From: Daphnia pulex | Lineage: Eukaryota > Arthropoda > Branchiopoda > Diplostraca > Daphniidae | Length of the DNA: 64,000 nucleotides | Direction: 5' to 3' | Assembly (NCBI RefSeq): GCF_021134715.1 | Contig: NC_060027.1 | Location: forward strand, 4,836,001-4,900,000 | Shown: piece after piece, positions 603 to 33,250 of the stretch | Layout: the number at the start of each line of letters is the position of its first letter | Numbering within the stretch: the first letter of the stretch is position 1 | Notes under the pieces: model-generated | Seen by the model: only the letters and a program-made list of their open reading frames with translations | Told to the model about the DNA's origin: nothing | Database searches by the model: none | Program-made: the position numbers and the translations under genes

Positions 603-2743
603 TTAGATTGCGTTGATCATTGCTTTCAGTCCGTTCCATGTTTCGATGGCCGTCGGCACAATTTGATCAGGGGGCAACTGGAAGCCATAGGTTCCTGAGT
701 CACGAAGTTCAATGGTGTAGGAATGAACGATCCCTTCATTTTCGTAATAATGATCAGTGGTCACGCCAGAAGCAATATCTGGAAAATAATTGGAATTTTT
801 TAAAATTAATTCCGTCTTATTAGTCTAAAAACTATTCACGAAAAAGACTCAAACTCCTCACAAATGGTAACTGCAGTGTTTCCGTACGTGTACTTAGTCC
901 CGTAAGTAGCTGTCAACGCACCGACGGCGATTTCCATTGCACGGAACTGACGAGAAAAATAATTTATAATCACAACATGTATTTGAAACCGAAAATATTT
1001 CGATCACATTTTAAATTTTACCAAATTTTACCATTTCGGGGTATTCTGGAGGCAAATCAGTGGTGTAACCATAAGCTGACAAAAACATTTGAGAGTAGGA
1101 GTGCATGGACACAGCTGTTTTCACTCTCCCGCGGTCAGCGGCAATAAGGTCCTTTAATTAAAAATCGAGATAAGAAATTAAGATCCATGGATTTCATGCA
1201 TAGAATTTTCGTACAATTAATAATTTCTGAAAAATAAAAAAAAAATTACTTACTCTGAGTGCGCTAGACTCTTTCTCGGAAAATGCAACATTTCCTCGGA
1301 AAGCTAATCACAGAGAAATGTTGTAAATTCTGGAATAAAGAATGTCAATCTACAACTATTGAAAACAATTTATACTATTGGAACAGGGATCGCCTGATGA
1401 TCCAGTACCGCCAAACCCAGCTAGAAAGTTGCGATTGACATCTACACCAATACACGTGGAACCGTTGTTAACGATGCGAGTTTTTCTCCAATTACGATCC
1501 TATGCTTTTAGATTTTTAATTCAGTTAGAATAAGATATTTTCACACATTTTCAGGCAGTTTTTATCAAGTCTATTTACTTACGGTGTTCCAGGTATAAGC
1601 GTATCCATCTGGATTGGCAATAGGAATGAATTTCCAATCATATTGATCGACGAGCGCAGTAATTTCAGGATCGGATCCGTATCCACTTGTAATCTATGCA
1701 CATAAAAGTTTAGAAAATATTCAATTTCACAGTTTGATAAAACTAAAGATCCAATCGGTTTTATCAAGGAGAGGAGCTATTAAGGGACATCAGAAAAAAT
1801 ATTCTACTCATGCATAAAATACCTGATCAATAATCCAAATGCAAGTGGCACCGGTAATCCACTCACGGGCATGTATATTGCAGTCGAAGAAATGGACGGG
1901 TTTATTGGCAGAAAGGTCACTGCTAATAATTGCTTGGACAATATCGCGACCCTCTTCACTTGTACCTCCAGTCTTGAGTGAAACTATCGGATTGGTGTTA
2001 GCTAGGTCAGTCAAGTAAGCCATCACCTATATGCAGAACGAATGTATAACAGTAAAAGCCATGTATGATGTCATTTATTGGGCAAAGAGTTAGATTTTTA
2101 CCTCTTCGTATGTGTGATAATTTTCAACATCAATAGCTTTGTTGCCATTGTAGAGTGCACGGCGTAGGGCAATGTTCTGTTGTTCTTTTTTGTCTAGTTG
2201 ACCGAGATCAGCAATTAGGATTTTATGACTGATGTTTCTCTCAGCCAATAGCTGAGTGACGTGAGCGTAACTTGGGAAAGAATAGCAAAATTAGAATAAA
2301 ATCTACTAACGCACGTACCGTAAGATCAAAAAAATGAAAAATTCTGTAAGTTTATAATATATTGGCTTAAAGAGTAAAGACTCACGATTCTGCATTGATG
2401 CGAATATCTGCAAATTGCTTGACTGCTGCAGGCAAGATCCAGAAATCGATCGAACTAGTTGATTCCCAATCGCGCAAAAATTCTAATTGCTCAGGAGTTT
2501 CGGGAATAGCGCGTAACACTAAATTCCTATAAAAATAGTTTGATTATAAGGTCCCATCAAGTGTTAAAATCGAGTTCTGGGAGATTTCGATTTCAATTTA
2601 AAAAACAAATTATCCTTTCGTATACTTATGCATTATTCTTTAAAAATTATATTTTAAACCTTTTACCCGGAATAATTAATTCTGGACGCTGAAGAGATGG
2701 CTAAAATTAAGGCGAATATGAGTGCTATTACGCAAAGCTTCAT
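603..2743 (-). CDS. Zinc metallocarboxypeptidase, M14A (pancreatic A/B type), copy 1
   Basis: Secreted digestive-type carboxypeptidase that removes C-terminal residues. Ten exons (minus strand): 2667-2743, 2386-2526, 2102-2270, 1823-2026, 1583-1693, 1376-1499, 1254-1303, 1032-1151, 862-946, 603-778. Together they give 1257 nt, 418 aa, with every junction in phase. Residues 1-19 are a hydrophobic signal peptide, about 20-110 an activation propeptide, then the catalytic domain. Visible catalytic residues: zinc ligands H181 and E184 in NIHAREW, and H309 in SMHSYS; substrate residues R239, N256, R257 and Y361; general base E384 in TIELRD. The site equivalent to bovine residue 255 is Thr, neither the A-type Ile nor the B-type Asp, so specificity is open. 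It sits head-to-tail with a paralogue at 3637-5928. Length is normal for the family and nothing is broken. Confidence 0.95.
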
Positions 2744-3636
2744 TTTCAAACTTAATTATGAATCCTGGACTTGTAACCTTCAGCACGCAACCGGTAGAAA
2801 CTGGTGATAAAGAATTAAAGATCATGTAGCCGATCGTTCTCTTTGCTATTTGGCAATAATATCACACATCAGCCGGATCTGTTATCGCACGATAATCTTG
2901 TTTTCATGTACTTTTGTACTGCTGTGCCAGCATCAACAGTCAACAAACAAAATTGGTCCATGGTGAACGAGACGACTTTAGAACGTAAACAAGTCAACAA
3001 CAACAAACTTTCGATTATTTGCTTTAGCGCTATCAAAATTAGACTGTTCTAAATTGGGCCCAACCATCACTATAACCAAGTACAGTCTGCTGTACTGTAC
3101 CGTAACCCACGTCAACGAGAATCGAGCTCCAGACTTACGTAAAACGTTAAGCGACGCACACACGGACTTGCGATAAAAGAAAACGACGGGAAAAAACGTT
3201 GATATAAGACATACACTTTCTGTTGACACGAGGAAAGAGACGTTTTATAGATAAAGTGTATTTTGATGTAGACGTGCAACTAAACATTGTGATAGATTAA
3301 TTTCGTCCATTCGTTTTGACAACCCATATCGTTCCTTGCGACTAAATTAGAATATACCATACTGAAAATTAAATAAGGAGGTTAAATAATGGCTTCAAGG
3401 GAATTTAAAATTTTTAATAATGTTGAATAGATTTGGCGGGAATAAATCTTGCATAGAAAGGGATATTTATATGTTCAGCGAAATAAATTGTTCTTTTTGT
3501 GATGTAATAATAATATAGGATGCAAGACGGAATTCATTTATAAGGGTATATTATTTCATTTAAGTGTATACATATTTCTCATCATTATATCTGTATAGAT
3601 GCAGAAAGCTATATCTGTTTCGTTGCGGGTGTTTTT
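2744..3636. other. Intergenic region between the two carboxypeptidases
   Basis: About 0.9 kb that should hold the promoter of the gene ending at 603 and the 3' UTR of the one starting at 5928. GATA-like TTATCA/TGATAA words occur near 2805-2815, but I see no convincing TATA box. No coding sequence was recognised. Confidence 0.4.
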
Positions 3637-5928
3637 TTAAATGGCATTTATGAAGGCTTTGATTCCATTCCAAGTTTCGGTAGCTGTTGGCACAATTAGT
3701 CTTGGGGGGAGTTCAAAACCGTACAGACCAGTATCACGTAGCTCAATAGTGTACGAGTGTACAACCCCTTCATTCTTATAGTAATGATCTGTGGTAGTGC
3801 CGGATGCGATGTCTACGGTTTAAGCAGAATTATGATGGTTAACAACAAATAAAACATTTTTGGAACGCGTAATAGAAAGTAAAATCATTCAGGAATTTAG
3901 AAACTTACAGAGGACAGTGCCGGTGCTACCGTAATCGTATACAGTTCCATAAGTAGCAGTGAGTGCATCGACGCCAGCCCTCATGGCACGTAACTAAAGT
4001 GGAAAAAAAACGAATTTTAAACTCATCTCGACTCATCTCTATTGTGGTGCAAGATAATTATTTTTCTCGTCTTACCATTTCGGGGTACTCCGCTGGTAAA
4101 GCACTTGAATAAGAATAAGAAGATAGCCATAATTGAGAGTAGGAATGCATGGAGATGGCTGTTTTCACTCTTCCGGCATCGGCGGCAATCAGGTTCTTTT
4201 TTGACGAATAAGTACAAAAGATTTTTTGATTAATCGTCGAATTCAAATTAGTGAAGGTGATAACAAATTTGATATACTTTGAGCGTAATAGATTCCGGCT
4301 CGGAAAATTCTGCCGCTCCGTGAAAAGCTGATGGAGAAAGTGGTATTTAGCAGATTTCGAAAAAATTTTAAAGTCATACATGGTTTAAATAGCAAAAGCA
4401 ATATTTACTTTCTGAACAAGGACCATTTGAGGAACCAGTACCACCGAAGCCAACAGGGAAGTTACGGTTAAGGTCGACGCCCACACAAACAGAGCCAGGG
4501 TTGACCGCACGATTCTTTCGCCAAAGTCGATCCTATAAGCATTGCGGAATGAGTAATGGTTTAAAGAAAAAAAATTGTTGGATTTTACTACTTAAAAGAT
4601 TATTACAAAAAAAAAATAAAAAATTAATTCAAATTTTTTTCCCGGAGTCTTCTCACCCATCAATGATTTTATGGATTTTACTTACATTTTTTAGTTATAG
4701 CTACTTACATTGGTCCAGCTGAAGGCATACCCATCTGGATTGGCAATAGGAACAAATTTCCAGTCATACTGATCAACGAGCGCAGTTATCTCCGGATCAG
4801 AACCATATCCAGTAGTTATCTACATTATTTACGTATGAAAGCAAAAAATAAAATAAAATAATAATAATAATTACAAACTGAAATGAAATCCGACGAACAA
4901 ATAATTAACACCCTGGCAATAATAAATGTTACCATTCATACCGTGTCAATAATCCAAACGCAGGTGGCTGCGGTAATCCATTCTCTAGCGTGAATGTTGC
5001 AGTCAAACCAGGCGATTGGTTTATTAGCGGATAGGTCACTGCTGATTGTTGCCTGAACGATATCGCGACCCTCAATACTGGAACCTGCGACCATGGTGGT
5101 AACTAACGGGTTGGTGCTGGCCAGCTCAGCCAAATAGGCCATCACCTTTTAAATGATTTCAGTCTTAAGATTAAATATGGGTCGGTAAAGACCAAGAGAG
5201 TTGGGATTTAAAAGATTACCTCTTCATAGGTGTGATAATTTTCTACATCGATGGCCTTGTCACCATTGTAGAGCGCACGGCGAAGAGCAATTTCCTGTTG
5301 TTCCTGTCGTTCCAGCTCTCCGAGATTGGAAATCAAAATTTTGTGGTTCAATTTTTTATCGAGCAATATTTGGGCAACATGCTTGTACCTATTATCATCG
5401 TCATTACATTAAACAAAAGTATGTACAATGCATTATTTTTAACGTATATAATAAGCCAAGCGCATACGATTCAGGGCTGACGCGGATGTCGGTGAATGTT
5501 TTAGTTGTAGCTGCTCGGGACCAGAAATCAATAGAGCTGGTCGATTCCCAATCGCTCAAGAATTTTATCTGTTCTTCCGTTTTGGGGGATACACGGATCA
5601 CCATATGACTTTGAAAGGACAAAATTAATAAATTTTATTGCTCTTAATCCTAAAGTAATACAATTTGTTTTGTGGATGCTGCATGATTGATTGCTATATT
5701 TTTCCTACTTTCTTACAGATAGGGAGCAACGGTTACACATGACACGACTCGCTGGTAGAAAACAAACATTATCGTGCCTTGCATGACTGTTGAAAATGCA
5801 TTATTTTCTAATATAGGACAGATGATGCTGTAAAATGAAATAAAATACCCGGTGTAGTCGACTTTGACAGCTGTAGTACTGAGAGCCAGCAAAGCACAGA
5901 TACAGAAGACCGGTCCGTGAATTCTCAT
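3637..5928 (-). CDS. Zinc metallocarboxypeptidase, M14A (pancreatic A/B type), copy 2
   Basis: Paralogue of the preceding gene in the same orientation. Ten exons: 5849-5928, 5468-5608, 5220-5388, 4942-5145, 4709-4819, 4409-4532, 4278-4327, 4076-4195, 3909-3993, 3637-3812. They total 1260 nt and 419 aa. Exons 2-10 have exactly the same lengths (141, 169, 204, 111, 124, 50, 120, 85, 176 nt) and phases as copy 1; only exon 1 is 3 nt longer. It has a signal peptide, a propeptide, the HAREW zinc motif, DLNRNF, SMHSYS and TIELRD, so it should be active. Thr again occupies the 255-equivalent site. The pair is a tandem dupl­ication old enough for clear protein divergence while gene structure stayed frozen. 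Confidence 0.95.
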
Positions 5929-6026
5929 TTTGAAAAGTTTTACAAAAAATGTTGCGAATGAATTCAAAATGACAACGTACAAAACAAAACCAATGAACGT
6001 AATGCAAGGATAAATTGCCGAGTCAG

Positions 6027-6033
6027 TTTTATA
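6027..6033 (-). promoter_or_regulatory. TATA box of carboxypeptidase copy 2
   Basis: TATAAAA on the minus strand, 99-105 bp upstream of the start codon at 5928, with TCAGT-like initiator sequence nearby. Position fits a core promoter; start of transcription is inferred. Confidence 0.5.
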
Positions 6034-6456
6034 GTCTCACGATCAAACTTGTTATCATATTTAGAAAGCCTTTTTAAACATTAACGTATATTCATTTTTA
6101 TCATGATCCCATATTTATCGACTAAATCTACTAACACAACCAAAGTCTAATATTAACCTTCACAAACCTTTGTCATTGGCCCATTGCGTAATCAATGCGC
6201 TGCTATACACTTTTGGTTCGTCAATATCGGTTAATCATAACCAACATGTCCTACTTGTGTCGTTTGGTGTGAACTACTCGCGTCACAGAGAACAAAATAA
6301 ACGGTGAGACGACAAACAAGTTTTTTTATTTCACGAGACGTGAACACGGCAGACAGAAATATATATTTGTAATATATATTTGTATTTTTTATATTATTTT
6401 TTTATATTTAGTATTCTTTGTAATATATTCAGAATCGAGTTAATTCTAATTCTAAC

Positions 6457-6532
6457 GATGGCACGAAATTGCTTGGCATCACATTTTGCCCAACACGCAT
6501 TAAAACTGGGCCACAAAAGCCACAAAAACATG
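6457..6532 (-). pseudogene. Fragment of an Rh ammonium-channel exon
   Basis: About 76 bp that aligns by eye with the inside of the Rh exon at 46695-46770, with roughly ten substitutions. On the minus strand it still reads [13 protein letters not shown], then a diverged stretch ending QFRAI, matching the Rh protein. Homology stops close to the exon border and no other Rh exon is nearby, so it is a detached scrap of this or another Rh gene. A truncated foldback element begins 60 bp away. Confidence 0.7.
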
Positions 6533-6593
6533 TGCATTTGTTGCATTTTGCTGTCAACATTGCAGAGCTGCCGCATCATCCCAAATCCCCTTG

Positions 6594-6885
6594 TAGTAAC
6601 AGTCATTTTAGCATTTTCACCCAAAACAAATTTTTAAAAGCGATTTTTTTAATGAGCTTTATTTATACCGATGTTTTCTTACTCTGTGTAAAACCCGCCC
6701 AAGAAAAAATAAAGGCGTCATATTAAAATGCGTTAAAAAATTAACTATCTGCTAAATGGTTTCTTTTTATTTAAAATTTTTTATTTAAAAAATACAGGGA
6801 TAAAGAAAATTGGAAGATTAACTTAAGTTCCAATTTTTGTTTAATTTCAATGTAATTTAGTATTTTATTATTATTTTATTAGTAT
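6594..6885 (+). mobile_element. One-armed copy of the foldback element seen at 30132-30962
   Basis: Begins TAGTAACAGTCATTTTAGCA and follows the left arm of the complete element at 30132, including the conserved run around AAACCCGCCCAAG at about 6690. It then runs into sequence matching the inverted inner part of that element. The second arm is missing. Confidence 0.7.
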
Positions 6886-7815
6886 TTTTTAAACAAAAAA
6901 ATGAAAAATCCAAAGTGGGAAAAATAAAAGAAATTTCAAGATATTAGCAAAATACAGATTTGGAATGATTTGACAACTGTGCAAGAGGGGAAATGAAGGA
7001 AGAAAACGACTAAAATAAAAAAAAATTTATTTGAAATTAAATCGTCCCCTAATTTGGCACCACTGCTCCACCCCCTTTTCTCGTACTGGCCATGTTCACC
7101 ACCTTCAAGCCCTTTGTTCAACGGGGCAGTTAGAAGAATTTTTTTGATTAGAATTAAGACCTTCTAGATTTGGGGAGGAGCAAAAACTTTTCACACACAA
7201 TTTTCTCTGTCATGTAATTTTTCAGTTGCAAAAAACATACCCTCATGTATGGATTCTATATTGCTTTTCAATATGGAAATTGCTGTCACATATGAATTAT
7301 GCTTTTACTGATGCGTTTCTTATCCATTATTGTCTGTGCTAGTACGTTACGAAGCTGATTACGAAGTTCTTAGCGGTTCTTAGTCAATAAAAGGAGCATT
7401 TGAACACCCAACTTCCCAATGGGAAAACCAAAATAGCAAGCCTCCGATGGGTTTAACACTAAATTTTTTTCTGTACACCTTGCCCAAATGAGGTTAATTT
7501 TAGCAAAGTTTCTCATCTTTCAATATACGCAAAATTTAAGCAAAATCGCAAATTACGCAAATTGCATTGCAAAAATATACAAAATTAAATAAAACTCAAG
7601 TAAAAGCTAGGTTTCAACAAGTTTCAATACTGAAACTAAATAAAAAATTTGTGACAAAAGTACGGAAATAATAAAACTAGAACAAGTACGTGAATTACGC
7701 ACAATATGTGCAAATCTAGCAAATATGCGGAAATTACGCAAAAAATAAACAAATTACGCAAAAATAGCAAATTAAGCAATTTATAATCTTCCAAACTCCG
7801 TTTCTTTCATTTTTG
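6886..7815. other. A+T-rich low-complexity DNA
   Basis: Dominated by irregular repeats of ACGCAAATT/GCAAATTA-type words, densest at 7500-7790. No gene recognised. Confidence 0.4.
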
Positions 7816-18612: not shown

Positions 18613-18794
18613 CGATATTACAAATGTTTTTCGACTTGAAGCAATAAAAGTTTTTAACTTCTAGAAGCCACGTAAACAAGGGCTAAGAAGTGATTCCCTA
18701 TAGGGGTTTGTCCCGACAGGCAATAGACAGATCCAGAGGATCTCGCCAAGGATGTCCCTACGGCCAGAAAAGGGATAAGTCTAGTCCCGTAATG

Positions 18795-19035
18795 TTAAAT
18801 ATTGTTTTCCGAGAATGTTCTTCGGTCGATAACCCACATATTGGTATAATATTAGATTATTACTTTGCTGCGTCAAGGTGGCTGTTAAATTGTTTTGTTG
18901 TTTTCCCAATGAATGACTATTATGAAAGATGAATAAATCAATATTACTTTTTGTTATTTTCCCAATAACGGACCATTAAAAAAGTAATAAATCCTTTTTT
19001 TATGAAAAAGCTATAGTCTTTTACATTTAACATGC
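18795..19035 (-). repeat. Dispersed repeat, inverted relative to 32100-32345
   Basis: Read on the minus strand, this aligns by eye with 32100-32345 at roughly 80% or more (shared words GTAAAAGACTAT, GTTATTGGGAAAAT and CAATATGTGGGTTATCGA). It lies outside the transposon end, so it is an older repeat family and not part of the terminal repeat. Confidence 0.65.
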
Positions 19036-19450
19036 GTTCAAAATCCTAAATGTTTTATATCGTATTCAATTCGTTAGTTTTGCATACAATTGCCTAAATG
19101 AACAATCCAATTGTCTTAAAATCCAAATCTTGCACAAGTCTCGAACAACTAACTTACGTACTTCGAAATTAAAACTCTACCTTCACGCTAACGTGATATA
19201 ATTTATCTTAAACGTTAAGGAGATGAAATGTTAAAACTGCTATTAATATATATCTATATAGGTAATTCTATGGAGGTTGGTTCAAACCCACTTTCAGCAA
19301 ACAAATGACTTATGAAACAAATAGTCTCAATAATCATAAATTCCTACACTGATGTAATTAAATCGATTTTGCTCACGCTGGGCTATAACCATGACAATGT
19401 GTAAGTATGCACTATCCATCTGGTCACATCGTGACTTTATTATCATCTCC

Positions 19451-19458
19451 GTTGCTGG
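19451..19458 (+). repeat. 8-bp target site duplication, left
   Basis: GTTGCTGG directly before the left terminal repeat; the identical octamer follows the right terminal repeat at 31988-31995. Confidence 0.9.
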
Positions 19459-20057
19459 CAACCTAGCCTCCACATCTTGAGACAAACCTTTGTCTTAGTT
19501 AGGGGTCACCCATTCAGACAAAGGGTTTTCTCAAGATTAGTTTTATTTGTTTTCATTTTTTGTTTTTTTAATCTTTGAACTGATATTTTTCTTCGGAATT
19601 ATAGAATTTTTTCACACCCTTTTTACGTCTTCTTTTATGTATCCACTTCCGAAAATGCTTCTTGAGACAAAGCTTTGTCTCAAGATTTTAAATGTGTTAT
19701 TTTACCGAGCCAATTCATTTAAAGCTCTAGTGTTAATAAATAGAGTAGTTGGACATCCTGCGTTGCGCATTCTCCGCAAATGCGAAAATGAAATTTATGT
19801 CTTTGCTGGTCTGTGTCGCCTACAGCGTCTTATGGAGAAACAAACTTCTTTTCGTTGAAAAAGTTGTTTTCTTACCTGTAACTTTGATTTTTCCCCTTTT
19901 CTTCCTAACAGTGAGTACTTTATTCATTTCTCTATTAACTAATTTTTATTTCTATCCCCAATTCCAACTGGTTAATTTTTAATTAATTTCTGTATGTGAC
20001 TGATTTTTTTTTTTTCTTGAAGCAGGAGAATTTCGTTTTTTGCGTGGTCGATTCTGT
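19459..20057 (+). repeat. Left terminal inverted repeat (599 bp)
   Basis: Reverse complement of 31389-31987; I found a single difference (GCAGGAG here, GCAGAAG in the other arm). Contains an imperfect inverted pair at 19475-19495 and 19516-19536 and a perfect 26-bp palindrome at 19660-19685 (TCTTGAGACAAAG plus its complement). All are built on the word CTTGAGACAAA and are candidate transposase-binding sites. Two overlapping ORFs here, identical in both arms, are probably not genes. Confidence 0.95.
19660..19685. repeat. Perfect 26-bp palindrome in the terminal repeat
   Basis: TCTTGAGACAAAG followed immediately by its exact reverse complement. Present in the mirrored place of the right arm. 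The same half-site recurs closer to the tip at 19475. Confidence 0.9.
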
Positions 20058-20109
20058 CTAGAAACGTCTAGAAACGTCTGCTACAGAAGACGAACAAATA
20101 AACCAGTCA

Positions 20110-20365
20110 AAAACCAAAATTAATTAAAAATGAACGTGATTGCATCGGGGATGGAAATACAAGTTAGGTAATAAAGAAATGAATAATGTATTCACTGTTT
20201 GGAAGAAAAGTGGGAAATCAGAGTCATAGATAAGAAAACTATTTTTTTACCGAGGAGAAGTTAGTTTTCCCATAAGACGCTGTAGGCGACACAGACCAAC
20301 TTGGACAAAAATTTGATTTTCGCATTTGCGGAGAAAGCGCAACGCAGGATGTCCAACTACTCTAT
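20110..20365 (-). repeat. Diverged internal copy of the terminal repeat
   Basis: Inverted relative to the adjacent left arm: it aligns with 31445-31710 (shared words AAGACGCTGTAGGCGACACAG and CGCAACGCAGGATGTCCAAC) with many changes. Probably the trace of an older end or of an internal duplication. Confidence 0.75.
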
Positions 20366-21315
20366 AGCTTGGAAAAACAGGTGTTTTTACATGTAAAAAA
20401 TTACCGAAAACAATTTGATTTTTGGTATCTTGCATTCAATTGTTGAGAGAATTATTTGTTTCATTATGGATTGAAATATATGAGTTTGTTTGGTCGTAAA
20501 ATACCGTGGTGTATTGTTGATGCTCTGACATATTCACGTATGCATTGAATGTGAGGTTTTCGTAGTCTGTTATAAAAAATCTTTAAAAAGTATATGTGTG
20601 GAAGTGTATATAATTATATTGTGATATTTATTACTGCAATTGTGCTTACAGCATCTTGAGACATCGGTTTTTCTGAAGTTGATATACTATGTGAATAATT
20701 ACTTTTCTCAATTTTCAAACGACTTTAAATTTTTCTGCAAATAAATAACTTACTTACTTTATAACGCTTATAAATAAACGGCATTATACATTTTTATTTG
20801 GTTTTGTCAGTAATTTTCGTTGCGTAGCAGTTCGAATTTCCAAACAAAAATTTAAATTGAATATTTATCGGAACACGGTGAACGAACGCTTTTAGCGGGG
20901 GAAATCCGGAAATGGCGGATGTACAGTTCTACACACTCCAGATTACCAGGTTCGCCGACTTTCCCAGTTGATTGTTCGAACGACCGTAGCGCCCCAAGTG
21001 TTCAGTCACATACAGAAAAGATGGTATTGAAAATTTTTTTGAAACTTGTATCTCAAAATTCTTTGTTTCATTCCTTTTTTATTATGAATAATACGTACAT
21101 TTTTTACTATTGTATATTTATGTAGTATTAAGCTATTATCTTCAATTTGACGATATTATTTCAACTCGCAATTACGCAACTCCACTATTTGCGTATGTGA
21201 TAATCGCCATTACTTGTTTGGATGCTGTTTATCATAACTTCGGTTCTTGATTTTCTGATCTCAAAAATCAATTTCTCTTCTAAAATTCTCGATCAACTAT
21301 TAAGTGTAATCTGCA
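20366..21315. other. Non-coding part of the transposon, probable passenger-gene promoter
   Basis: No ORF of interest. The segment 20870-21020 is distinctly more G+C-rich than its surroundings (GCGGGGGAAATCCGGAAATGG context) and may hold the promoter or 5' UTR of the gene starting at 21316. Confidence 0.35.
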
Positions 21316-23578
21316 ATGGAATCGAATGACCATTGTGAACTAGATCAAAGTGAAATGGTTAAGAGACTTAAAAAGAAAAAGAAAACTCTCGGAAGAGTTT
21401 TGTCAAAAAAAAAAGACAAAGCAAAAAAAGAAAGATTGGCAGCGATAAAGGTATGAATTTACAAACTGTTGGCTGATACTTAGATTGAAATTTTTTTTGG
21501 AAACTTTAGATTAAGTATGGGAATGTTACAAAGAAAAAGTCTTGTGGACCTCCAGCTGATTGGGATTTGCACTGGGGTAGTATGAGTGAAAAAGAGCAAA
21601 GAAATCTCTCTAGGCGTCAAAGTCATGCAGTAGCATCATTGTTAAAAAAGATGGAGGACATGGAAACCCAATTTGGAGCCAGTATTTTGGCAAACATACG
21701 TTTCCCAAATGGATCACAACAATCACTTTATACAATGAAAGTTGGTGAAGGAATCAAGTTTGCTGAAAGTAGTGAAGGCTTGTTGTTTATTTCATCCTTC
21801 AAACGTTACTTCAATAAGATTCAGAGTAACAAATATAGTTTGTCTTTAAAATTTCAGTATTTATTGATCATAATTTTGTCGACACTTTATAGAAAGGAGA
21901 ATGGAGACTGTAGAGGAAGTAAGAGGACTTTCCACGAAGAAAAAAAAGTGTAAGGCTAAATTTATCTGTCAATTCTTCTATAAATATTTTTAATATTATT
22001 CAATCTACATTTCTTTTTTCTTAAAGGTTTTGCAGACAAACAGCTAAGGAAGGAGCTCCGAAAGGATAAGACTACAACTCTACCTGAATATTCAGATTCA
22101 GAATCAGCACATGAATTAAAGAGTGATGAAGAAGAAAATAGTGTTCAAGAAGGAAATAGTCGTCAAGAAGTAAACAGTGATCAAGAAAGAAGAATTGAGA
22201 CTGTAGAGGAAGTAAGAGGACTTTCCACGACGAAAAAAAAGTGTAAGGCTATAATTTATCTGTCAATTCTTCTACATATATTTGAAATATGTGAAATGTT
22301 ATTCCATCTACATTTATTTTTTCTTAAAGGTTTTGCAGACAAACGACCAAGGAAGGAGCTCCGAAAGGATAAGACTACAACTCTACCTGAATATTCAGAT
22401 TCAGAATCAGCACATGAATTCAAGAGTGATCAAGAAAGAAGAATTGAGACTGTAGAGGAAGTAAGAAGACTTTCCACGAAGAACAAAAAGTGTAAGGCAT
22501 CTGTCAATTCTTCTATATATATTTGAAATATTATTCAATCTACATTCCTTTGTTCTTAAATGTTTTGCAGACAAACGACTAAGGAAGGAGCTCCGAAAGG
22601 GTAAAACTACAACTCTACCTGAACATTCAGAATCAGGAAATGAATTCAAGAGTGATGAAGAAGGAAATAGTTGTGAAGAAGTAAACAGTGGACAAGAAGT
22701 AAACAGTGATCAAGAAAGAAGAATTGAGACTGTAGAGGAAGTAAGAGGACTTTCCACGACGAAAAAAAAGTGTAAGGCTATAATTTATCTGTCAATTCTT
22801 CTACATATATTTGAAATATGTGAAATGTTATTCCATCTACATTTATTTTTTCTTAAAGGTTTTGCAGACAAACGACCAAGGAAGGAGCTCCGAAAGGATA
22901 AGACTACAACTCTACCTGAATATTCAGATTCAGAATCAGCACATGAATTCAAGAGTGATCAAGAAAGAAGAATTGAGACTGTAGAGGAAGTAAGAAGACT
23001 TTCCACGAAGAACAAAAAGTGTAAGGCATCTGTCAATTCTTCTATATATATTTGAAATATTATTCAATCTATATTTCATTTTTCTTAAAGGTTTTGCAGA
23101 CAAACGACTAAGGAAGGAGCTCCGAAAGGATAAGACTACAACTCTACCTGAACATTCAGAATCAGGAAATGAATTCAAGAGTGATGAAGAAGGAAATAGT
23201 CGTCAAGAAGTAAACAGTGGACAAGAAGTAAACAGTGATCAAGAAAGAAGAATTGAGACTGTAGAGGAAGTAAGAGGACTTTCCATGATGAACAAAAAGT
23301 GTAAGGCTATAATTTATCTGTCAATTCTTTTATATATATTTCAAATATTATTCAATCTACATTTCTTTTTTCTTAATGGTTTTGCAGACAAACGACAAAG
23401 AAAGGAGCTCCTAAAGGGTAAGACTACAACTCTACCTGAACATTCACAATTAGAAGGAAAGGTTAGTCGTCAAGAAGATCAACTTTTGCCGTCAACCCCC
23501 ATGATGCAGCCAATAGTTCTTGTAAAAAAGTTGGATTTGTCTCTTATTAATTCCCTCATTAATAATTGGAAAAAATAA
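21316..23578 (+). CDS. Passenger protein of the KDZ transposon, tandem-exon array
   Basis: Nine exons: 21316-21450, 21510-21825, 21893-21949, 22036-22242, 22339-22491, 22571-22771, 22868-23020, 23100-23300, 23388-23578. Total 1614 nt, 537 aa, no internal stop. The N-terminal 45 residues are Lys-rich (nuclear-type); exon 2 encodes a unique part (PPADWDLHWGSMSEKEQRN). Exons 4-9 are six homologous copies of one phase 1-1 exon (KELRKDKTTTLPE ... ERRIETVEEVR), with sizes alternating 207, 153, 201, 153, 201 nt before a diverged last exon. Exons 5 and 7 encode identical protein; the array grew partly by a 529-bp two-exon duplication. Function unknown; no enzyme motif seen. It converges on the transposase gene. 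Confidence 0.75.
22036..23578 (+). repeat. Tandem array of duplicated exons with their introns
   Basis: Six exon-intron units of alternating long and short type. The unit pair has a 529-bp period: the ORF at 22296-22526 recurs unchanged at 22825-23055. All exons are phase 1-1, so gain or loss of a unit keeps the frame. Confidence 0.9.
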
Positions 23579-23931
23579 AGTGTGTTTGGGATTTTGTATT
23601 CGTTAAATGAATCAAACTTATTTTCAGAATTGGCGGTTAAACTGTCATGTTTACTTTGAGGTCGCGACATCTATTATTCATATCATAGTTCAGTATCCTT
23701 CAATAAATTCCGAGGGGGGTGCTTGGAAAATGAAGACATCTGTCGGATCCCAAGTAAACTCTTTGAAAATATTTCGCGCAAACTTGATGCATTGCAGACG
23801 CAAACTTGACGTGTAGACCGAAAAGGTAATCATAACAACTCAGAACAGCAGGTAATTGTTTGACTATTTACAACATGGCGTTTTCATATTGTTTAATGGT
23901 TTTTAACAACGTGATTTTGAATAGATGCTAA

Positions 23932-24682
23932 ATGATTTTGCTTTCGGTTTTGACTTGGCGTCTCATTCCTAGACTGTTTGTGAATGGGCTTTTAACATTC
24001 TTCAAAGTCATTCAAGGATTCAAGGAGGAATTGAACAAGAAACTGGAAGAAGAAAGCAAGAAAACAATTCATTCAAGATCTGAAACGCAAGAATTTATCC
24101 AGCAACTGACGGTATAAATACGTGTTAGTCAAAACGACGCCATTTTATTTAATTTTTTGTTGTAGGCCTAGACATATGTCAACAAATGTTGGAGGAGACA
24201 ACGACCAAAATGGAGGATCTTTGTAATCAGTTGTCGATTTAGAATGAACATGATAGAGATCTTGACAGGAAGACTCGTAGAGCAGAATACATATTGGCTG
24301 GCCAAGCAATTAATATCTGATATGGAAAAACAAATTGCTGATCTCAAGTTTCAGTTGTCTGAAAAGGCTATTGAACTCCAGTGTAAGAAAAAGAAGATTG
24401 AAGAAACTGTGAATGCCTTGAAAGACTTGTCGCTACATTCTCATAGCAATGAACAGGTATTTTTAGAAACATTTTAAAGGAAACTAACACTTAAGTTATC
24501 ATTTTGATTTTAGTTGGCCATTGTCGAAGAAAGCAATCGCGAACTTTAGGGCAAATTTGATGAAAAGGCCCAGGAACTTGAAGCTGCTCTTGTTTGTCGA
24601 GAAAATTCACAGCGATTAAAAGACGATCTCGATAAGGAAGTTGCTGATCTCAAATATGCCAGCTTATGTCAAAGTCAATAGA
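23932..24682 (+). pseudogene. Decayed coiled-coil gene inside the transposon
   Basis: Exon-like pieces 23932-24114, about 24168-24459 and 24514-24682 with recognisable splice signals encode heptad-rich sequence (EELNKKLEEESKKT; DMEKQIADLKFQLSEKAIEL; EKAQELEAALVCRE). In-frame stops occur near 24239 and 24548 and the frame shifts near 24310. It looks like a captured host gene that has died; the parent gene was not identified. Confidence 0.55.
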
Positions 24683-24942
24683 ACTCCAGTAGAAGTTCTT
24701 TTAGAAATCTTTATAATAAACTGGCTTTTACATATGTATGCTCGCGTTTTGTGTAAATTAGTTTATCTATAATGTTAGAAAAAACGGCCTAAAAATAGAA
24801 GAAAGCGTCACACTTGAACTGCAATACAGGCAATTTTCAAATTTTGAGGTGGTTGAACTAATCGGAACTAATGCTAATGCGTCATAAGCGGATAAGAAAG
24901 TTAATGAATGCATGATTCAATGCTAGCATCAATCTTTTATTA

Positions 24943-25932
24943 GGCTCATCATAATGAAATCCACTTTAATTAAGGAGCGTGTCTCCCGTTCGACCTGTTT
25001 TTTTTAAATTTCTCATCAGATATTCAAATTACCCGCTATTCAAAAATGGCCTTCAGCTGCTAGTAGCTGATTGGCCGTTAATCATTTACATTTTTTCATA
25101 ATAAAAACACCCTATAAAATTGATTATTATGCACCACTAGATGCACTGTTCTACGAGGATTCCAAAAATCATAATTTTAAAGAAAAATAACAACGATAAA
25201 TGCCCAAACGAGCATGTCAAAGTTTCGTTGTTTTGACTCATCCCCCCTCCTCCCAGATTTGGGCCAAAATTTTAAACTCTGATTGCGTCTAAATTATTGA
25301 TCAAAACTTGAAAAATTTAACAGAAATGGATAGGTCTTGCTGAGACCTATCGTTTGGTGTAAAAATTGAATTGGAAAAAGTAAACAGAAAAATTTTTCGA
25401 ACAAGTTTCTATTTTTTCGTTTTTTCGGTTCAGCGCAGTATTCATCTTAACTGAAAAAAACCAAAAAGTAGAACTCGTTCTGAAATTTTTTTGTGATGAG
25501 TTTTTTACACACAATTTTTACATCAAACGATAGATCTCAGCTAGACGTATCCATTTCTATTAAATTTTTAAAGTTTTGACCAATAATTTAGTCGCAATTT
25601 AATTTTTTAATTTTTGCCTAAATCTAGGGGGAGGGGTGATGAGTCAAAACAACGAAACTTTGACATGCTCGTTTGGGCATTTATCGTTGTTATTTTTCTT
25701 TAAAATTATGATTTTTGGAATCCTCGTAGAACAGTGCATCTAGTGGTGCATAATAATCAATTTTATAGGGTGTATTTATTATAAAAAAATGTAAATGATT
25801 AACGGCCAATCAGCTGCTAGCAGCTGAAGGCCATTTTGATTGGGGGTAAATTCGAATGTTTGATGATAAATTTAAAAAAAGCTCATAAGGCAGACACAAA
25901 CTTACAACATATGGAGTTGATTATGATGAGCC
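24943..25932. mobile_element. Foldback element (990 bp) nested in the transposon
   Basis: Long arms of about 400 bp are inverted around roughly 25430, for example the words GCACCACTAGATGCACTG and AACAACGATAAATGCCCAAA recur in reverse complement. Ends are GGCTCATCATAAT / ATTATGATGAGCC with TA on both sides (24941-24942 and 25933-25934), as in Tc1/mariner-type MITEs. No ORF of its own. Confidence 0.85.
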
Positions 25933-25963
25933 TAATGAACAGATTGATAATATAGGGTTTGTA

Positions 25964-26206
25964 ATGTATTACTTCACTTACTTTTCCACTTATGGCGCAT
26001 TAGTTCAACCGGCTTTATTGTATTACCTCTCATTGATGTTCAACCGTGATGATATTAAAGACGGAGCAAGAAATTTTTTAATTTTTAGCACGGTATATTC
26101 TGACATCACATATCTTTTCAGTACAAAACGCACCAACGATAGAATTCATCTTATTAACGTGATACATTTTGTTTTATTCGGAACCGTGTTTTACAATCTG
26201 ACGTAG
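25964..26206 (+). CDS. Hypothetical 80-aa hydrophobic ORF
   Basis: Open frame beginning MYYFTYFSTYGALVQ with two hydrophobic stretches (about residues 8-25 and 65-80). It starts 30 bp after the nested foldback element and ends 1 bp before the transposase stop codon. Unrecognised; may be chance. Confidence 0.2.
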   Translation: MYYFTYFSTYGALVQPALLYYLSLMFNRDDIKDGARNFLIFSTVYSDITYLFSTKRTNDRIHLINVIHFVLFGTVFYNLT

Positions 26207-26207
26207 C

Positions 26208-29200
26208 TTAATTTTGTTCGCTATCAGTAAACTCGAATGATTCCTGGCTTTCTTCTTCAGTGTCTTCATCCAATTCATCGGAATCTTCGGTCAGCGAGCT
26301 TTCAAAGTCATGTGGTTCCTCAGAAGTGTAAGACTCGAGGTCACTTTCAACCTCTCCTGCAGAATGAACTTCAATTGCTTCAAATTGGGTGAGACGAATA
26401 AAGTCGGCTTCTGAATACAGCTGAAATGTTTCCAGAGACTCTTGAATCTTAACATCTAATCTGGCGATTTCACATCGCATCAAGATTGCTTTACCAGCTA
26501 TAAACTCATTAGTTTCCTCGCATGAAACGTTCTGGTCAATGAGATTTCTATTCAAGGAGGAGCGAGTTGAGTCAAGGTACAAGATATACTCTTTCATCTC
26601 CATTTTGCAGAGCGTGATCTCCTCCTCGGCTCTTTGCAGTAGCATCCAAGCATCAACGAGTTCATACTTCTGACTAAGTGACACTGTTTACCAAGAACAA
26701 TTAGATAACATTGCGTACCACTAGTGCAGAAAAAAAATAAAGAACTTACAAGTTGAAGATTCATTCTCTGAATCATCTTCGGAGTTGACATCCCAGGGGA
26801 AAATGCCCTTCTCAAAGTCATCCATCGAAATTATTCCATGTATTGCTCTGTATTTTGAATTAATTAGTGAAAGTAATTTCACAGCTTTTCCTTTAAGTTT
26901 AGTTAACACTCCCCGGAACTTCGTACGAGTCTTGCAGGATTCTAATTGTAATTTTACAATTAACTGTGGAAAATTATAAGTAAGATTATTTTCTGTAAAG
27001 TCACCGGCTTGAGTGGAGATAAAAATAGAGACATTCTTCATTTGAATGAAAAGCCCCTCAAGGTTTCGTTTCAGCTTATTAAAAGGAGTCTTTCTGTTTT
27101 GTCGTGATCCAAGATTAGCCAGGGCTTTTGTTTTCAATTCTTTTAAGATTTCTGGAAGATCTTCAATGTTACACTGATTGGAGTTCAACAGAGAGGTCAA
27201 TTTTTCATTATATACCGCTACACACTTCGAAGCCTTTACGAAAAAAAAAATTACCTATAAATAGTTATACACATTTTTTAAAAAATTTATACCCTTTTTA
27301 ATCGTTTACTGAGAATCGAAGGCATTCTTTCAATTTTACCCCAGTTCCAGTACAGAATTGCAGCAGAAAGTAAATCCATCCGGTCTAAGAACATACAATC
27401 GTAAATCAACGAAGAATAATAATGGATGGGAATGTAATGGGGAATGACTTACTTGCTTTGCTCATATGCTTCGTTACATAACCATACAGAGACAGTTTAG
27501 AAAAAACTTGCTCGTGCTCCTCACCAACAGTGAGACCAGCTCCTTTCTGCCAGTGGGGATTATAGAGAATCTAGAACTTCAAAAATTGAATAAATCTGTA
27601 ACTGAACTGTAACTGACACATTACGGTATCACCTGACACGGCCAATGATGAGCTTTGGCGTGCATTCTGGGTAAAATGCCTTTCATTTTACTTGTCATCT
27701 GCTGATACTCCGGAAAAGCTATAGCCACTTTTCTTACAAATTTTTCGTATCTGCAAATGACATCATTGCAGAAAAATTTGCAGTTCAATCCAAATACAAG
27801 TTTTTGGAGAAATAAAGTGTATGTCATAGATTCCCCTTCGTGCATGTTGATTGCACCCAGCCCTATTCCATGACGGCAGACACTGAGAAGAAGACCGGTC
27901 TCATCGGATTTTGACCTTTTACAAGAATCCACCTTCGCAGCTTTAAAAGCTGAGCCTCCGCACATCTCCTTTTTTTGTGTCTGAAGAAAAAAATTCCTTT
28001 AATCAGCTGTGTTAAATAATTAAATATTATTACTTTTTTTATTTTGGTGTAAATTCTGTTTCGAAAATTTGCTACGTCCTTGTCCGATTTAATTACCAAG
28101 TCACCAAACCTCAGTGCTTCTTCTTGGATGCTAGATATCAAATTAAAGTTATCAATTGTATAAATGGATTCTTTAATTAACTAAAAATAAACCTTTCTCT
28201 TTCGTTTTGTGGATTTAGAACCTTTCCAGCAGAGGCATGGCGTTTCAACTTGACATTCCCGTCTGAAGAGCCCATTACGGGAGATTTCCCACAAGGGGGA
28301 CAAGACACTGTGCTCATATTCTTTATTTTCACCTTGATATTTAAGCGACAAAGCTCCCATTCCTTAAAGGCCCTTGAGAACAAAGGGTCATTCACAATTG
28401 GACTCTAAATAACAAAAAAAATTATGATTTACTTTTTTATGAATCATATAGCTTATTTAAATTCTAAACAATTTACTCTCCCAGATTCCTTTGAAATTTC
28501 TTCTATAGTATTGATAAACATTTTTTCAGAATTCAAAGGGGATTTATGCCTCAGATGATACCACATAGCAAATAATTCTTCGCAAAACAGATAACTGATA
28601 GATGTTGTGGCACGTGCAGGCCAAAATCCAGAAAAAATATAGTCGTTTTTGTCAGCGTCTGTTATCTCTCTGCAATCCTTGCACAAGAAGCTTGCAGCTC
28701 TTAAATCAAAACGGCCTTTTTTAAATAAGAAAGTAAAATGTTTTATCATTAGACCAGATATATACATAGAAAATAAAACATCAAATACCTTGATGCATAA
28801 CAACTGCTATTTGAAGATTTGGGTCAGGGTTAGGTATGAGTTTCATATTTCCTTTGCCGCTACATTTCACACACTGAGTTGGAACAAAACAAGGAACACA
28901 AATATCTAAAAAAAAATGAAGTTGAAAAATATGAAATACATTTGGTTTAAAAATACATCACCTTTCAATACAGATTTCCAATCTTTGTCCCAAAACTCAC
29001 AAGGTTTCAATGGCTGCAAAATTTCCTTATTGACCAAATATCTATGGTGAAATGGTTGTCGACAATGCAAAACATCATCACAATCCCAGCACAGGTGATT
29101 TTTGCAGGTCATGCATCGAACAGCAGCTAACTCCAAAACTTTTTGACATACATTACAACAAGTATTTCTGAAAGGTTGCTTTGAGACATAACTTTCAAAA

Positions 29201-29759
29201 ATGTCAGTTCGAACATTTTCCCATTCTTTTCTCTGATCACATTGCCTTTCTTGCCAAGTTTTCCTTACGAACTGGTTTCTTGAAGCAGCTCTAAAGTCTT
29301 CTTTTAAATTTTCAATCAGTTTTTGGTGAACTTCATCTAACTCTTCTGAAACAAAAAATAAATTATAACGTAAATATTAAGAGACCACTATGTTTGGAGG
29401 AGACACATTTATTAGAATTACATACCAAATAGAGGAGAAGTATCTGTGAGTTGTTGGTGAATTTGAGAGGTTGTGGCAGAAACCATTTCATGGCAATTAA
29501 CGTTACCAATTTTATTATTTGAACATTTTTCTTTTTTTTCACGTTTCCTACCAGTATAGTTAAATGTTTTCCCACCAACCTTGCTGTTAATATTCCTTTT
29601 TGTTTTTTTTCGATTGTTTTTTTGTTTTTCAACAACTTGTCTGTCAGCTAAAGATTCTCTTGTATATTTACGTTTTCCCTTCTTAGACCTGGAAAAATTA
29701 ACATCTATTTCCTCGCAAGGTTCATCACTTGAATTTGAAGTTTCACATTTTTTATCCAT
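26208..29759 (-). CDS. KDZ-superfamily (Zisupton-like) transposase
   Basis: Eleven exons: 29426-29759, 28962-29345, 28789-28905, 28477-28715, 28193-28404, 28034-28130, 27633-27980, 27453-27570, 27293-27384, 26750-27233, 26208-26683. They total 2901 nt, 966 aa, with all phases consistent and no stop. Order: Lys-rich N-terminus (1-110); Cys/His cluster typical of KDZ proteins (C174, C175, C178, C189, C192, C197, C200, C206, H211, H212) plus further Cys pairs to about 260; a CPPCG...DGNVKLKR segment; the KDZ core with DETGL (D487), VCRHG, INMHEGE, CNDVICRYEKF (D534), HAKAHHWPCQ and LTVGEEHEQVFSKLS (E594-E597); then coiled-coil and an acidic tail. D487, D534 and one of E594-E597 are the candidate RNase-H-fold acids. 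It should bind the terminal repeats and move the element. Confidence 0.9.
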
Positions 29760-30129
29760 AATGTTTAGATAACAAATTCAATCAAATGTGTTTCGAAATG
29801 ACAGAAATCAATTAAAGGATATTCATAGGAATATTCCACTTTGAATATGTCCGTTAGGTGGCACCATACAGTGACAATGTAAATAAACGAGATAGGAAAA
29901 ACAATGGATTTAGTATTTCTATAATTATTTTTTATTTACTTTTTAACAGTATTTCGATATTTACAAAATAAAAACCTGCATAAATTTTGTTTCTAGGTAG
30001 GGGTTCTATCTCGTTTCATTTTATAAAAGATTCAAAGTGTTAAACTCACTTCCTAACATCTCATAAGATGGCGCAGTACCTCTTAGACGTATAGGATAGG
30101 TTCATAGCCTACTTAAATGAGTAGCCTAT
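29760..30129. other. Upstream region of the transposase gene
   Basis: A+T-rich sequence before the transposase start codon, presumably its promoter. No TATA box stands out. Confidence 0.35.
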
Positions 30130-30131
30130 TA

Positions 30132-30962
30132 GTACAGTCATTTTAGCATTTTCACCCAACACAAATTTTTAAAAGCGATTTTTTAATGAGCATTATTAAT
30201 ATCAACGTTTTATTACTCTGTGTAAAACCCGCCCAAGAAAAAATAAAGGGATTATAATAAAAAATCTGTTTAAAAATTAACTTTTTGGTTTATGGTGTCT
30301 TTCTATTGAAAATTTTAAATTTTCAGTTTTTGTAATCAACAAACCCGCTGGGGGCTTCTTGTTGCAAAAGTTGCAGCGGCTATGACAAGAATTCCCCCCC
30401 CCCCCCCAGCGGGTGTGTTGATTACTAAAACTGAAAATGACGATTGGGGGGGGGGGTCTCTAAAAACACGAATAACTTAAAGAAATATCGGTCTCGCCTT
30501 CAAAAAACTAATAGAAACTTGAAGTAGAAGAAACAATGAATAAAACGAGACTAAGTTTGTAATTTTAGGTCGTTTAGGTTACAAATGGGAGAGATTTTAA
30601 AACTGTCGTTTCCCCATAAGCGCCATGTTAAAACGCGCAAAGAAATTTTCGACGGCTCACCGATTTTTCAATAGATTTTCATTTTTTAAAATACTAAATT
30701 ACATTGAAATTGAACCAAAATTGAAACTTAACTTAATCTTTTAATTCTCTTTAACCCTGTATTTTTAAAATTTAAAATAGAAAGACACCATAAACCAAAA
30801 AGTTAATTTTTAATCAGATTTTTTATTATGATCCCTTTATTTTTTCTTGGGTAGCTTTTACACAGAGAAAGAAAACGTTGATATAAATAATGCTCATTAA
30901 AAAAATCGCTTTTAACAATTTGCTTTGGGTAGAATCCCTTTTTTGGATAAAAGTGACTGTAC
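30132..30962. mobile_element. Foldback element (831 bp) with nested inverted repeat
   Basis: Ends GTACAGTCA / TGACTGTAC flanked by TA (30130-30131, 30963-30964). Arms of about 150-170 bp share AAACCCGCCCAAG-type sequence in inverted orientation. Inside, a second inverted pair (GTAATCAACAAACCCGCTGGGG at about 30329-30350 against CAGCGGGTGTGTTGATTACT at about 30407-30427) surrounds a long C run (30397-30411) and a G run follows at 30446-30457. A truncated copy lies at 6594-6885. Confidence 0.85.
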
Positions 30963-31388
30963 TATATGGATAGGGTGAAAGTATAATGTAATTCTAAAAG
31001 TCTGAAATTCTATTTGCGAACTATTTTACAACCATGTTTTTCAATTTGAAAAAAAATATATTTCTTGGTTCTTATTTCGCTTACTATAACCACTTATCTC
31101 CCTTTAACAAAAAAAAATCAATTATGTTTAAAGGCAAAGGGTAAAAATTTCAACGAATAATAAAAATAATAAAGCAATTTATGATATTTAATCGTTTCAA
31201 ATCAAAATGTTACCGAATTAAAAAAAATTAAATTTGAAGACAAAGCAGTTTCTCAAGAAAAATTAACATGAGAGACAATGGATATTCTCAAGATATAAAC
31301 AGCAATATATTACAAATCTAAACGAATAGTAGGAATTGGTTTCATTTTAAATCATCTGTCATACCTGAATTATTTCAATCTATAGCTT

Positions 31389-31987
31389 ACAGAATCGACC
31401 ACGCAAAAAACGAAATTCTTCTGCTTCAAGAAAAAAAAAAAATCAGTCACATACAGAAATTAATTAAAAATTAACCAGTTGGAATTGGGGATAGAAATAA
31501 AAATTAGTTAATAGAGAAATGAATAAAGTACTCACTGTTAGGAAGAAAAGGGGAAAAATCAAAGTTACAGGTAAGAAAACAACTTTTTCAACGAAAAGAA
31601 GTTTGTTTCTCCATAAGACGCTGTAGGCGACACAGACCAGCAAAGACATAAATTTCATTTTCGCATTTGCGGAGAATGCGCAACGCAGGATGTCCAACTA
31701 CTCTATTTATTAACACTAGAGCTTTAAATGAATTGGCTCGGTAAAATAACACATTTAAAATCTTGAGACAAAGCTTTGTCTCAAGAAGCATTTTCGGAAG
31801 TGGATACATAAAAGAAGACGTAAAAAGGGTGTGAAAAAATTCTATAATTCCGAAGAAAAATATCAGTTCAAAGATTAAAAAAACAAAAAATGAAAACAAA
31901 TAAAACTAATCTTGAGAAAACCCTTTGTCTGAATGGGTGACCCCTAACTAAGACAAAGGTTTGTCTCAAGATGTGGAGGCTAGGTTG
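31389..31987 (-). repeat. Right terminal inverted repeat (599 bp)
   Basis: Reverse complement of 19459-20057 with one observed difference; ends in the shared tip CAACCTAGCC read from the right. Confidence 0.95.
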
Positions 31988-31995
31988 GTTGCTGG
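31988..31995 (+). repeat. 8-bp target site duplication, right
   Basis: GTTGCTGG, identical to 19451-19458. Confidence 0.9.
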
Positions 31996-32345
31996 TGTAG
32001 TGGTTAAAGCATTGGATTGATGACTCAAAAGATGATGGTTCAAACCCACTCTCGGCAAAAAAGGCAGCAGCTAATCAATCATTTGGAATTTTGAACGTGT
32101 GGTAAATGTAAAAGACTATTGCTTTTTCATAGAAAACGATGTATTCCTTATTTAATGATCCGTTATTGGGAAAATAAAAAAAAAATTATATTAATTTATT
32201 CATCTTTGATAATAGTCATTTATTGGGAATATAACAAAAAAATTTAACAGCCATCTTGTCGCAACAAAGTAATAATATAATATTATACCAATATGTGGGT
32301 TATCGATTGAAGAATATTGTCGGAAAAAAATATTTTTCCAATAAA
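31988..32345 (+). mobile_element. tRNA-derived SINE interrupted by the 12.5-kb transposon
   Basis: A box TGGTGTAGTGG (31993-32003) and B box GGTTCAAACCC (32037-32047), followed by a body related to 18795-19035 read on the other strand. The transposon inserted right at the start of the A box: the octamer GTTGCTGG is the first part of the tRNA-like head. Confidence 0.65.
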
Positions 32346-33250
32346 GACATGCTAGCTGGGTATATACAAGTTAGACACAACTGTCTGCATTACATTTTGC
32401 ATTTCGAAAAAATAAAACCACATCAAATTAAAAAAATAGCAAATTTAAATATTTCATATTTAACTGTTTCATGAATAATTTAATGTTTGTGTGCTTACAT
32501 CTTGCATAAATAACTTCTTTTTGCCAAGTACTGCAGAACTGGTCAATTCATTTCTATTGATTTCACATCGATATTGTCAAAGTTTTATTTTTCAATCAAT
32601 TGCGATTGCGGTTATGCCAATAGATTTCTCACTATACTTATATCTTTTTAAAAGAGGCCATTCCTTTCCTGGATTCCGGTTTGGGTTGACCTGGAAAATA
32701 TAACTGATTTGCACTTCTTTATGAGACTTGTTGAGCAGCTGGTTGGCTTGTCCCCCTCCGACAATGCGGTAGAGTGGCCGTTGTGTCTGCTCTCAGTTCT
32801 CGGAATCCTAACATATGGACGGCTAAACACGAAAATTTTTTGAGGATGTGAAAAGAGCGCAGGTAAACCTCTTATTCTGGAGAAAATTTACCTACATCGC
32901 GTAACAAATTCAGGTGGACGCATTGCGTGCATTTCGAACCACTATTAGTTATCATAAACGAAGAGAGCAAAAAAACTAACAAGGAGGTTTAAAAGTTTAA
33001 GTTACGTAAAATACAACAAATCTGGGTGGAGAATAGGATTATATAGTCCAACGAGCTACTTAAAAACCATAGCTATGGTCATGGCGGCTATGCGCCTCTC
33101 TACGCTATGTGCTGGGTGAGGCACATAGCGATTATTGAATTATATTCACAAAATTTGGTCCATCGGATTCGCAATAATCCATCCATCCATCACTAAACCA
33201 GTAGCAGTGATGGAGTGGGAGAAGGGTGATGGAGTCACATGGTCTACTTG
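32346..33250. other. Intergenic, no gene seen
   Basis: Unremarkable A+T-rich DNA. An inverted pair of GCACATAGCG/CGCTATGTGC words lies at 33102-33130. Confidence 0.35.

Follow-up and report, generated by a model that had tools for sequence, protein, structure and literature searches.

The window, a 64,000-bp stretch of the Daphnia pulex genome (C11:4836001-4900000), carries at C11:4855459-4867987 a transposon of 12,529 bp that we regard, with high confidence, as a genuine, complete and autonomous-type KDZ (Kyakuja-Dileera-Zisupton) DNA transposon. The element has the tips CAACCTAGCC (left) and GGCTAGGTTG (right), is flanked on both sides by the target site duplication (TSD) GTTGCTGG, and contains two genes, namely a transposase gene and a passenger gene (Table 1). 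It is not a chance arrangement, since its tips recur in the genome, 8-bp duplications recur at independent sites and an empty site was found. The genome searched was the 133-Mb assembly of 13 contigs.

The transposase is encoded on the minus strand by 11 exons, with all introns of the GT-AG type and no internal stop. The first-pass annotation, which was made from the letters of the window, had read both this gene and the 9-exon passenger as free of stops, and the splice models constructed here are open in both cases; the 11 open transposase exons stand, whereas the length of 966 aa given there is replaced by 973 aa. A Pfam profile search assigns to the protein the CxC3 domain (PF18804; 141.8 bits vs. 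a cut-off of 26.6, E 9.5e-42) and the KDZ domain (PF18758; 118.3 bits vs. a curated cut-off of 26.6, E 5.2e-34), far above the cut-off in both cases, so that the earlier naming of the element as KDZ-type is borne out. The protein thus has both marks of the KDZ superfamily, i.e. a KDZ domain above cut-off and an associated cysteine cluster of the CxC family. The DETGL/CRHG/H-x3-H core described earlier was also located, with DETGL at residue 494, CRHG at 503 and HAKAH at 575; these motifs are the putative catalytic core of the transposase. A search of the transposase sequence for structures in the PDB gave no match up to E 1.

A protein search with transposase residues 130-830 covered 5.8 billion proteins, of which only the 7,990 candidates with the most words in common were scored, and returned four Daphnia magna proteins (P0001-P0004). 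The best-scoring one covers 99% of the query at 45% identity, and another covers half of it at 52%. All four contain the KDZ domain, and P0001 and P0002 contain CxC3 as well; these D. magna proteins are known here from protein records alone. Within the D. pulex genome, 18 of the 20 KDZ matches listed lie above the Pfam cut-off (one only with in-frame neighbours), as do 49 of the 49 CxC3 matches listed, these counts being of matches and not of elements.

The boundaries of the element are fixed by its insertion site. The host repeat (bases 31988-32340) gave 40 scored matches, including the window's own, among 132 candidates. The two flanks were joined with a single octamer kept, and the resulting sequence was aligned to six fetched siblings of the repeat. 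The alignments cross the joint in all six (1,120-1,131 columns, 95.3-98.7% identity), and each sibling has a single octamer at the joint, which is GTTGCTGG exactly in three and differs by one change in the other three. This clean paralogous empty site locates both element ends and the duplication with single-base precision. It confirms a complete element with a perfect 8-bp flanking duplication, as first proposed; the span of 19451-31995 given for it holds, but includes both copies of the duplication. The 599-bp inverted ends with one difference are likewise as described, the sole mismatch being at element position 568. Since these arms exceed the native ends of the family (see below), they could in principle stem from two insertions that have nothing to do with each other, or from a segmental inverted duplication, rather than from a single transposon. 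We give this explanation almost no credence: the duplication is exact, the same tips occur elsewhere, and the empty site in all six fetched siblings refutes it.

The host sequence that received the element is one copy of a multicopy repeat, and the insertion point lies at the 5′ border of a tRNA-like stretch. The repeat (18701-19458 and 31988-32400) has inverted arms about 400 bp apart as well as the tRNA-like stretch, and its best other matches are 97% like the right flank. Targeting of tRNA genes of the Dada type (PMC3706591, accessible in part) was considered and rejected: the right flank at 31990-32058 scores 22.7 bits against an Rfam cut-off of 29, ARAGORN finds no tRNA in the window, the stretch lies within a multicopy repeat, and the transposase is of the KDZ type. 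No tRNA-like flank is visible in the printed letters at the C1 and C8 insertions described below, where Rfam was not run.

Other copies with like ends are present in the genome. The tip pattern (up to three mismatches) occurs at 13 places, vs. none for the reversed control. When part of the transposase gene was used as a DNA query, seven matches were returned: four main copies and, on C10 and C3, three small fragments. The main copies are the window element, two copies on C1 at 94% (L019 and L020) and one on C9 at 97% over 1,638 query bases. L019 and L020, which lie about 211 kb apart, could be followed tip to tip, and the duplication GTAATTGC flanks each of them. Their left flanks are 96% alike over 608 bases (95.7% for the left flank together with the first 209 element bases), and their right flanks fall within a 93.0% alignment. 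Because their flanks are alike, the pair is probably one insertion that was duplicated with its surroundings, the two copies later decaying differently. The passenger is deleted in both, through different deletions (element bases ~566-6447 and ~244-7485, respectively). The C9 copy retains remains of the passenger and the transposase together; its right limit falls in transposase exon 2, and no element tips were found for it.

Two of the 13 tip places bound a non-autonomous relative of 905 bp (L070:44-948; a C8 insertion) with the tips CAACCTATCC and the duplication ATCTGGTA, and at another tip place, on C3, the end is 92.7% like the right end of this 905-bp element. C3 and C8 have further tips of the CAACCTATCC type, and C10 has a variant one. 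Perfect 8-bp duplications therefore occur at three independent insertions if the C1 pair is counted once, namely GTTGCTGG, GTAATTGC and ATCTGGTA, the last belonging to a sister family.

Several observations weigh against the identification of the window element as a complete and autonomous-type transposon. The window copy contains nested MITE-like insertions (MITE, miniature inverted-repeat transposable element) and a 1-kb foreign segment. The empty sibling of the C1 insertion was not found, as the two partial matches to its flanks do not reach the tip. The four proteins that the protein search returned from its 7,990 scored candidates do not include a D. pulex transposase, and the gene may accordingly be unannotated or unexpressed. 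Finally, selection on the window transposase is not significant. In codons aligned in all four copies, 4 synonymous and 5 nonsynonymous changes occur only in the window copy, vs. 19 synonymous and 59 nonsynonymous changes, plus 5 stops, unique to the other three copies together (Fisher p 0.24). Compared to a neutral ratio of 4:1, the window changes give p 0.086; the direction is that of constraint, and the difference is not significant.

The two ends of the window copy are not equivalent in origin. The outer 281 bp of the left arm match the left ends of the C1 copies L019 and, up to base 244, L020. At the other end, the window copy ceases to resemble L019 and L020 at element base 11931 (window 31389), and from there on the left end is repeated in inverted form. 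The native right ends of L019 and L020 match each other closely, and are ~76% like the window left end over 234 columns. The copied stretch runs to element base 599 and the centre of a nested palindromic MITE lies at about base 595, so that the break at the right end is ~4 bp from the centre of the palindrome; judged by eye, the joint and the left-end source have about one base in common. About half of this MITE (19740-20366) has been carried to the opposite end of the element. We infer that end replacement produced the right arm, with the left arm as its source, and that the arm length of 599 bp is a secondary state and not that of the native terminal inverted repeat (TIR). As the break is so close to the centre of the nested palindrome, the simplest and most likely route would be a template switch at the palindrome during DNA synthesis, in repair or replication, by which the right end would have been replaced by an inverted left end.

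This bears directly on the age of the insertion. Insertion does not make the TIRs of DNA transposons identical. If the right arm was copied from the left, the single difference in 599 positions dates the copying and not the insertion, and the first-pass annotation's description of the element as recently inserted, which had been drawn from the identity of the arms, is not supported on that ground. What bounds the insertion is the host repeat: the insertion is younger than this copy of the repeat, to which the closest of the six fetched siblings is 98.7% identical.

Mobility of the element would follow a cut-and-paste reaction. The CxC3-KDZ transposase would bind the CAACCTAGCC ends and excise the element, which would then be joined to target DNA whose two strands are cut 8 bp apart, and repair would leave the 8-bp duplication. 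The window copy is the only one among the four aligned copies with a stop-free transposase frame. L019, L020 and C9 have 4, 3 and 4 in-frame stops, respectively, and all three have deletions in the transposase relative to the window copy, including the loss of 541 coding bases in C9; L020 has lost the 3′ part of the gene through its internal deletion. It is quite conceivable, at somewhat less than an even chance, that the window copy is genuine but stuck, its two left ends, nested insertions and possibly silent transposase leaving it unable to transpose. In native elements the left end differs from the right one, the three other compared copies all carry transposase stops, and no transposase record from D. 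pulex was returned from the candidates scored. On the other side are the 11 of 11 open exons with GT-AG introns, the perfect 8-bp duplication, and an insertion younger than a host repeat copy that is only ~1.3% from its closest fetched sibling.

With regard to the KDZ lineages, traits reported for Zisupton in the accessible part of PMC12730594 are found here, namely 8-bp duplications (at three sites), TIRs (~76% alike over 234 columns in native form; 599 bp in this copy) and a KDZ transposase. The window copy differs from Zisupton in its replaced right end, and the likeness is one of traits. According to the same partial source, two fungal Kyakuja families have 7-bp duplications, CA..TG ends and no TIRs; the present element has 8-bp duplications and TIRs, though its ends are also CA..TG. 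Assignment of the transposase to Dileera or to an unnamed KDZ lineage, instead of Zisupton proper, is a real contender that falls a little below even odds. The Pfam KDZ model is named for all three lineages, and Zisupton-1_PGr, a Dileera, likewise makes 8-bp duplications (PMC12730594, in the part accessible). Against such an assignment, TIRs together with 8-bp duplications are what that text reports for Zisupton, and the 7-bp duplications without TIRs of the two Kyakuja families do not fit.

Comparable elements are known from other groups, each described here from those parts of the source that were accessible. The Cryptococcus neoformans elements KDZ1-KDZ3 (PMC12810828) resemble the window element in size (~9.2-11 kb), in having TIRs (139-241 bp) and in combining a KDZ domain with a cysteine cluster. 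The mobile KDZ1 is ~11 kb long with 241-bp TIRs and 8-bp duplications, the duplications of KDZ2 and KDZ3 being 4-8 bp. They differ in that they are fungal, have CxC1 and not CxC3, and that their insertion into a reporter gene has been demonstrated; no mention of a passenger was found in the accessible text. The giant KDZ elements of Ectocarpus (PMC12477816) are similar in being generally >10 kb, in containing nested unrelated transposable elements and, in many families, in carrying extra genes, but they are from a brown alga, reach 30.3 kb, and are present in many copies that make up 1.8% of the genome. The Zisupton elements of the nematode Pristionchus (PMC9297572) share an animal host, a multi-exon KDZ transposase and evidence of TIRs; they differ in encoding proteins of 1166 and 1367 aa in 18 and 31 exons, and in that TSDs were not detected.

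The passenger gene is encoded on the plus strand by nine exons in an open frame, giving 541 aa in our splice model. The NCBI protein P0006 (LOC124207076, Daphnia pulex, 552 aa) can be assembled without a single difference from the same nine exons of the window. It differs from the splice model in an earlier exon 2 donor and in acceptors lying 9 bases earlier in five repeated exons, and one of its acceptors has no preceding AG. An isoform, P0005 (482 aa), has fewer repeats than P0006. The passenger thus appears to be the annotated gene LOC124207076 with several isoforms, which in turn would presumably rest on RNA evidence. No mention of the locus name was found in openly licensed papers. Six copies of an exon-intron unit (21870-23485), with a spacing of 232-303 bp, make up most of the gene, and exons 4-9 look like tandem duplicates.

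No Pfam match was obtained for the passenger. The domain encoded by exon 2 also occurs at C3:6335740, C10:4530066, C10:5498216, C8:3855144 and C8:2703984, in proteins of D. pulicaria and D. pulex, and in short, unnamed proteins of ENA and JGI origin. The model of this domain has a mean predicted local distance difference test (pLDDT) score of 50. A Foldseek search with it gave a best E of 0.58 and nothing relevant in the top 50 rows, and the domain sequence has no match in the PDB below E 0.29. By eye, the domain (21510-21836) resembles a MADS-box, with a helix followed by a beta-hairpin; this reading was set aside as a weak lead only, given the absence of an SRF-type family from the Pfam matches, the pLDDT of 50 and the lack of a fold match. 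A match to OmpH in one of eight domain members (E 0.0013) and matches to Methyltransf_15 in two of eight (best E 0.038) were taken as chance.

The passenger is co-resident with the transposase in this family; for KDZ elements at large, the data do no more than suggest an association. Two of the five distant domain loci (C10:5498216 and C10:4530066) have KDZ pieces within 10 kb, and in both the two genes are oriented differently to each other than in the window element; at the other three, no KDZ piece was found within ~4.4-4.9 kb, in the stretches fetched. Only one of the five is within 10 kb of a listed KDZ or CxC3 locus. The chance of at least one such case is 0.03, as estimated from 43 merged loci (43 of the 49 CxC3 rows and all 20 KDZ rows; the six CxC3 rows dropped were at loci already listed), and this figure is too weak to establish the association. 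The second case (L025) turned up when the fetched loci, and no others, were searched with greater sensitivity. A two-gene architecture conserved across divergent KDZ elements was rejected, as no TIR with a TSD was found at the C10 locus and the orientations differ. Specifically, around the KDZ gene at C10:5486001-5501000 there is no 12-bp TIR (up to two mismatches) with an exact 8-bp duplication, and the sole candidate in L025 is of low complexity.

Odds are about even that the element acquired the passenger in a single capture, be it an independent host gene or a different mobile gene, and that the gene serves no function there. The three distant loci without nearby KDZ pieces and the differing orientation at the remaining two favour such a capture, while the presence of the passenger beside the transposase in the C9 copy, the two relatives near KDZ pieces and the annotation of the passenger as a gene with several isoforms speak against it. 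On weak grounds, an accessory nuclear protein appears likelier than a bystander. The more specific proposal that the passenger represents a Daphnia family of KDZ accessory proteins, with an undescribed domain (helix then beta-hairpin in the low-confidence model) and tandem exon duplication, and with a role in transposition or in escape from silencing, seems to us rather improbable. TET/JBP proteins have been proposed to act likewise in fungal transposons.

The remaining features are listed in Table 1. The segment at 23689-24692 is degenerate sequence with coiled-coil-like frames; the two places that it resembles, C8:13349257 and C8:13351981, are in opposite orientation, and the C9 copy has another stretch, of 500 bp, at the corresponding position.

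Table 1. Features of the KDZ-type element and its insertion site (window coordinates).
Feature	Position	Strand	Remarks
Left TSD copy GTTGCTGG	19451..19458		single octamer in 6/6 sibling sites fetched
Right TSD copy GTTGCTGG	31988..31995		same sibling-site evidence
KDZ-type DNA transposon, 12,529 bp	19459..31987		tips, TSD, Pfam domains, empty site
Left arm (599 nt)	19459..20057	+	outer 281 bp precede nested MITE; remainder about half of palindromic MITE
Right arm (599 nt)	31389..31987	-	apparent inverted left-arm copy; L019 and L020 have the native right end in its place
Nested palindromic MITE	19740..20366		family at many genome places, on many contigs
Passenger gene LOC124207076	21316..23578	+	9 exons
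Passenger exon 2	21510..21837	+	conserved domain common to distant loci
Segment of ~1 kb	23689..24692	+	92% like two places on contig C8
Palindromic MITE-like stretch	25000..25880		arms 383 nt, 89% complementary
Transposase gene	26208..29759	-	11 exons, 973 aa, CxC3 and KDZ domains
Nested MITE	30130..30964		3-bp duplication TAT (by eye); not in L019 or L020

No description of the window element was found in the accessible portions of the openly licensed literature on Zisupton, KDZ, Kyakuja and Daphnia, and, as far as that literature shows, this is a previously undescribed element of an already known, though little-studied, kind. In a survey available to us in part (PMC8594854), the share of Zisupton is put at 0.04% for the D. 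magna assembly and 0.00% for that of D. pulex. The KDZ family is plainly present in the D. pulex genome; since its matches are few and many of them are broken, the two results need not conflict. For the main crustacean model, the window provides a KDZ element that is defined to the base and whose genes are open, and the passenger of this element is offered as an orphan gene for testing. More generally, near-identical long TIRs can arise when one end is copied over the other, and TIR identity is therefore unfit for dating such insertions.

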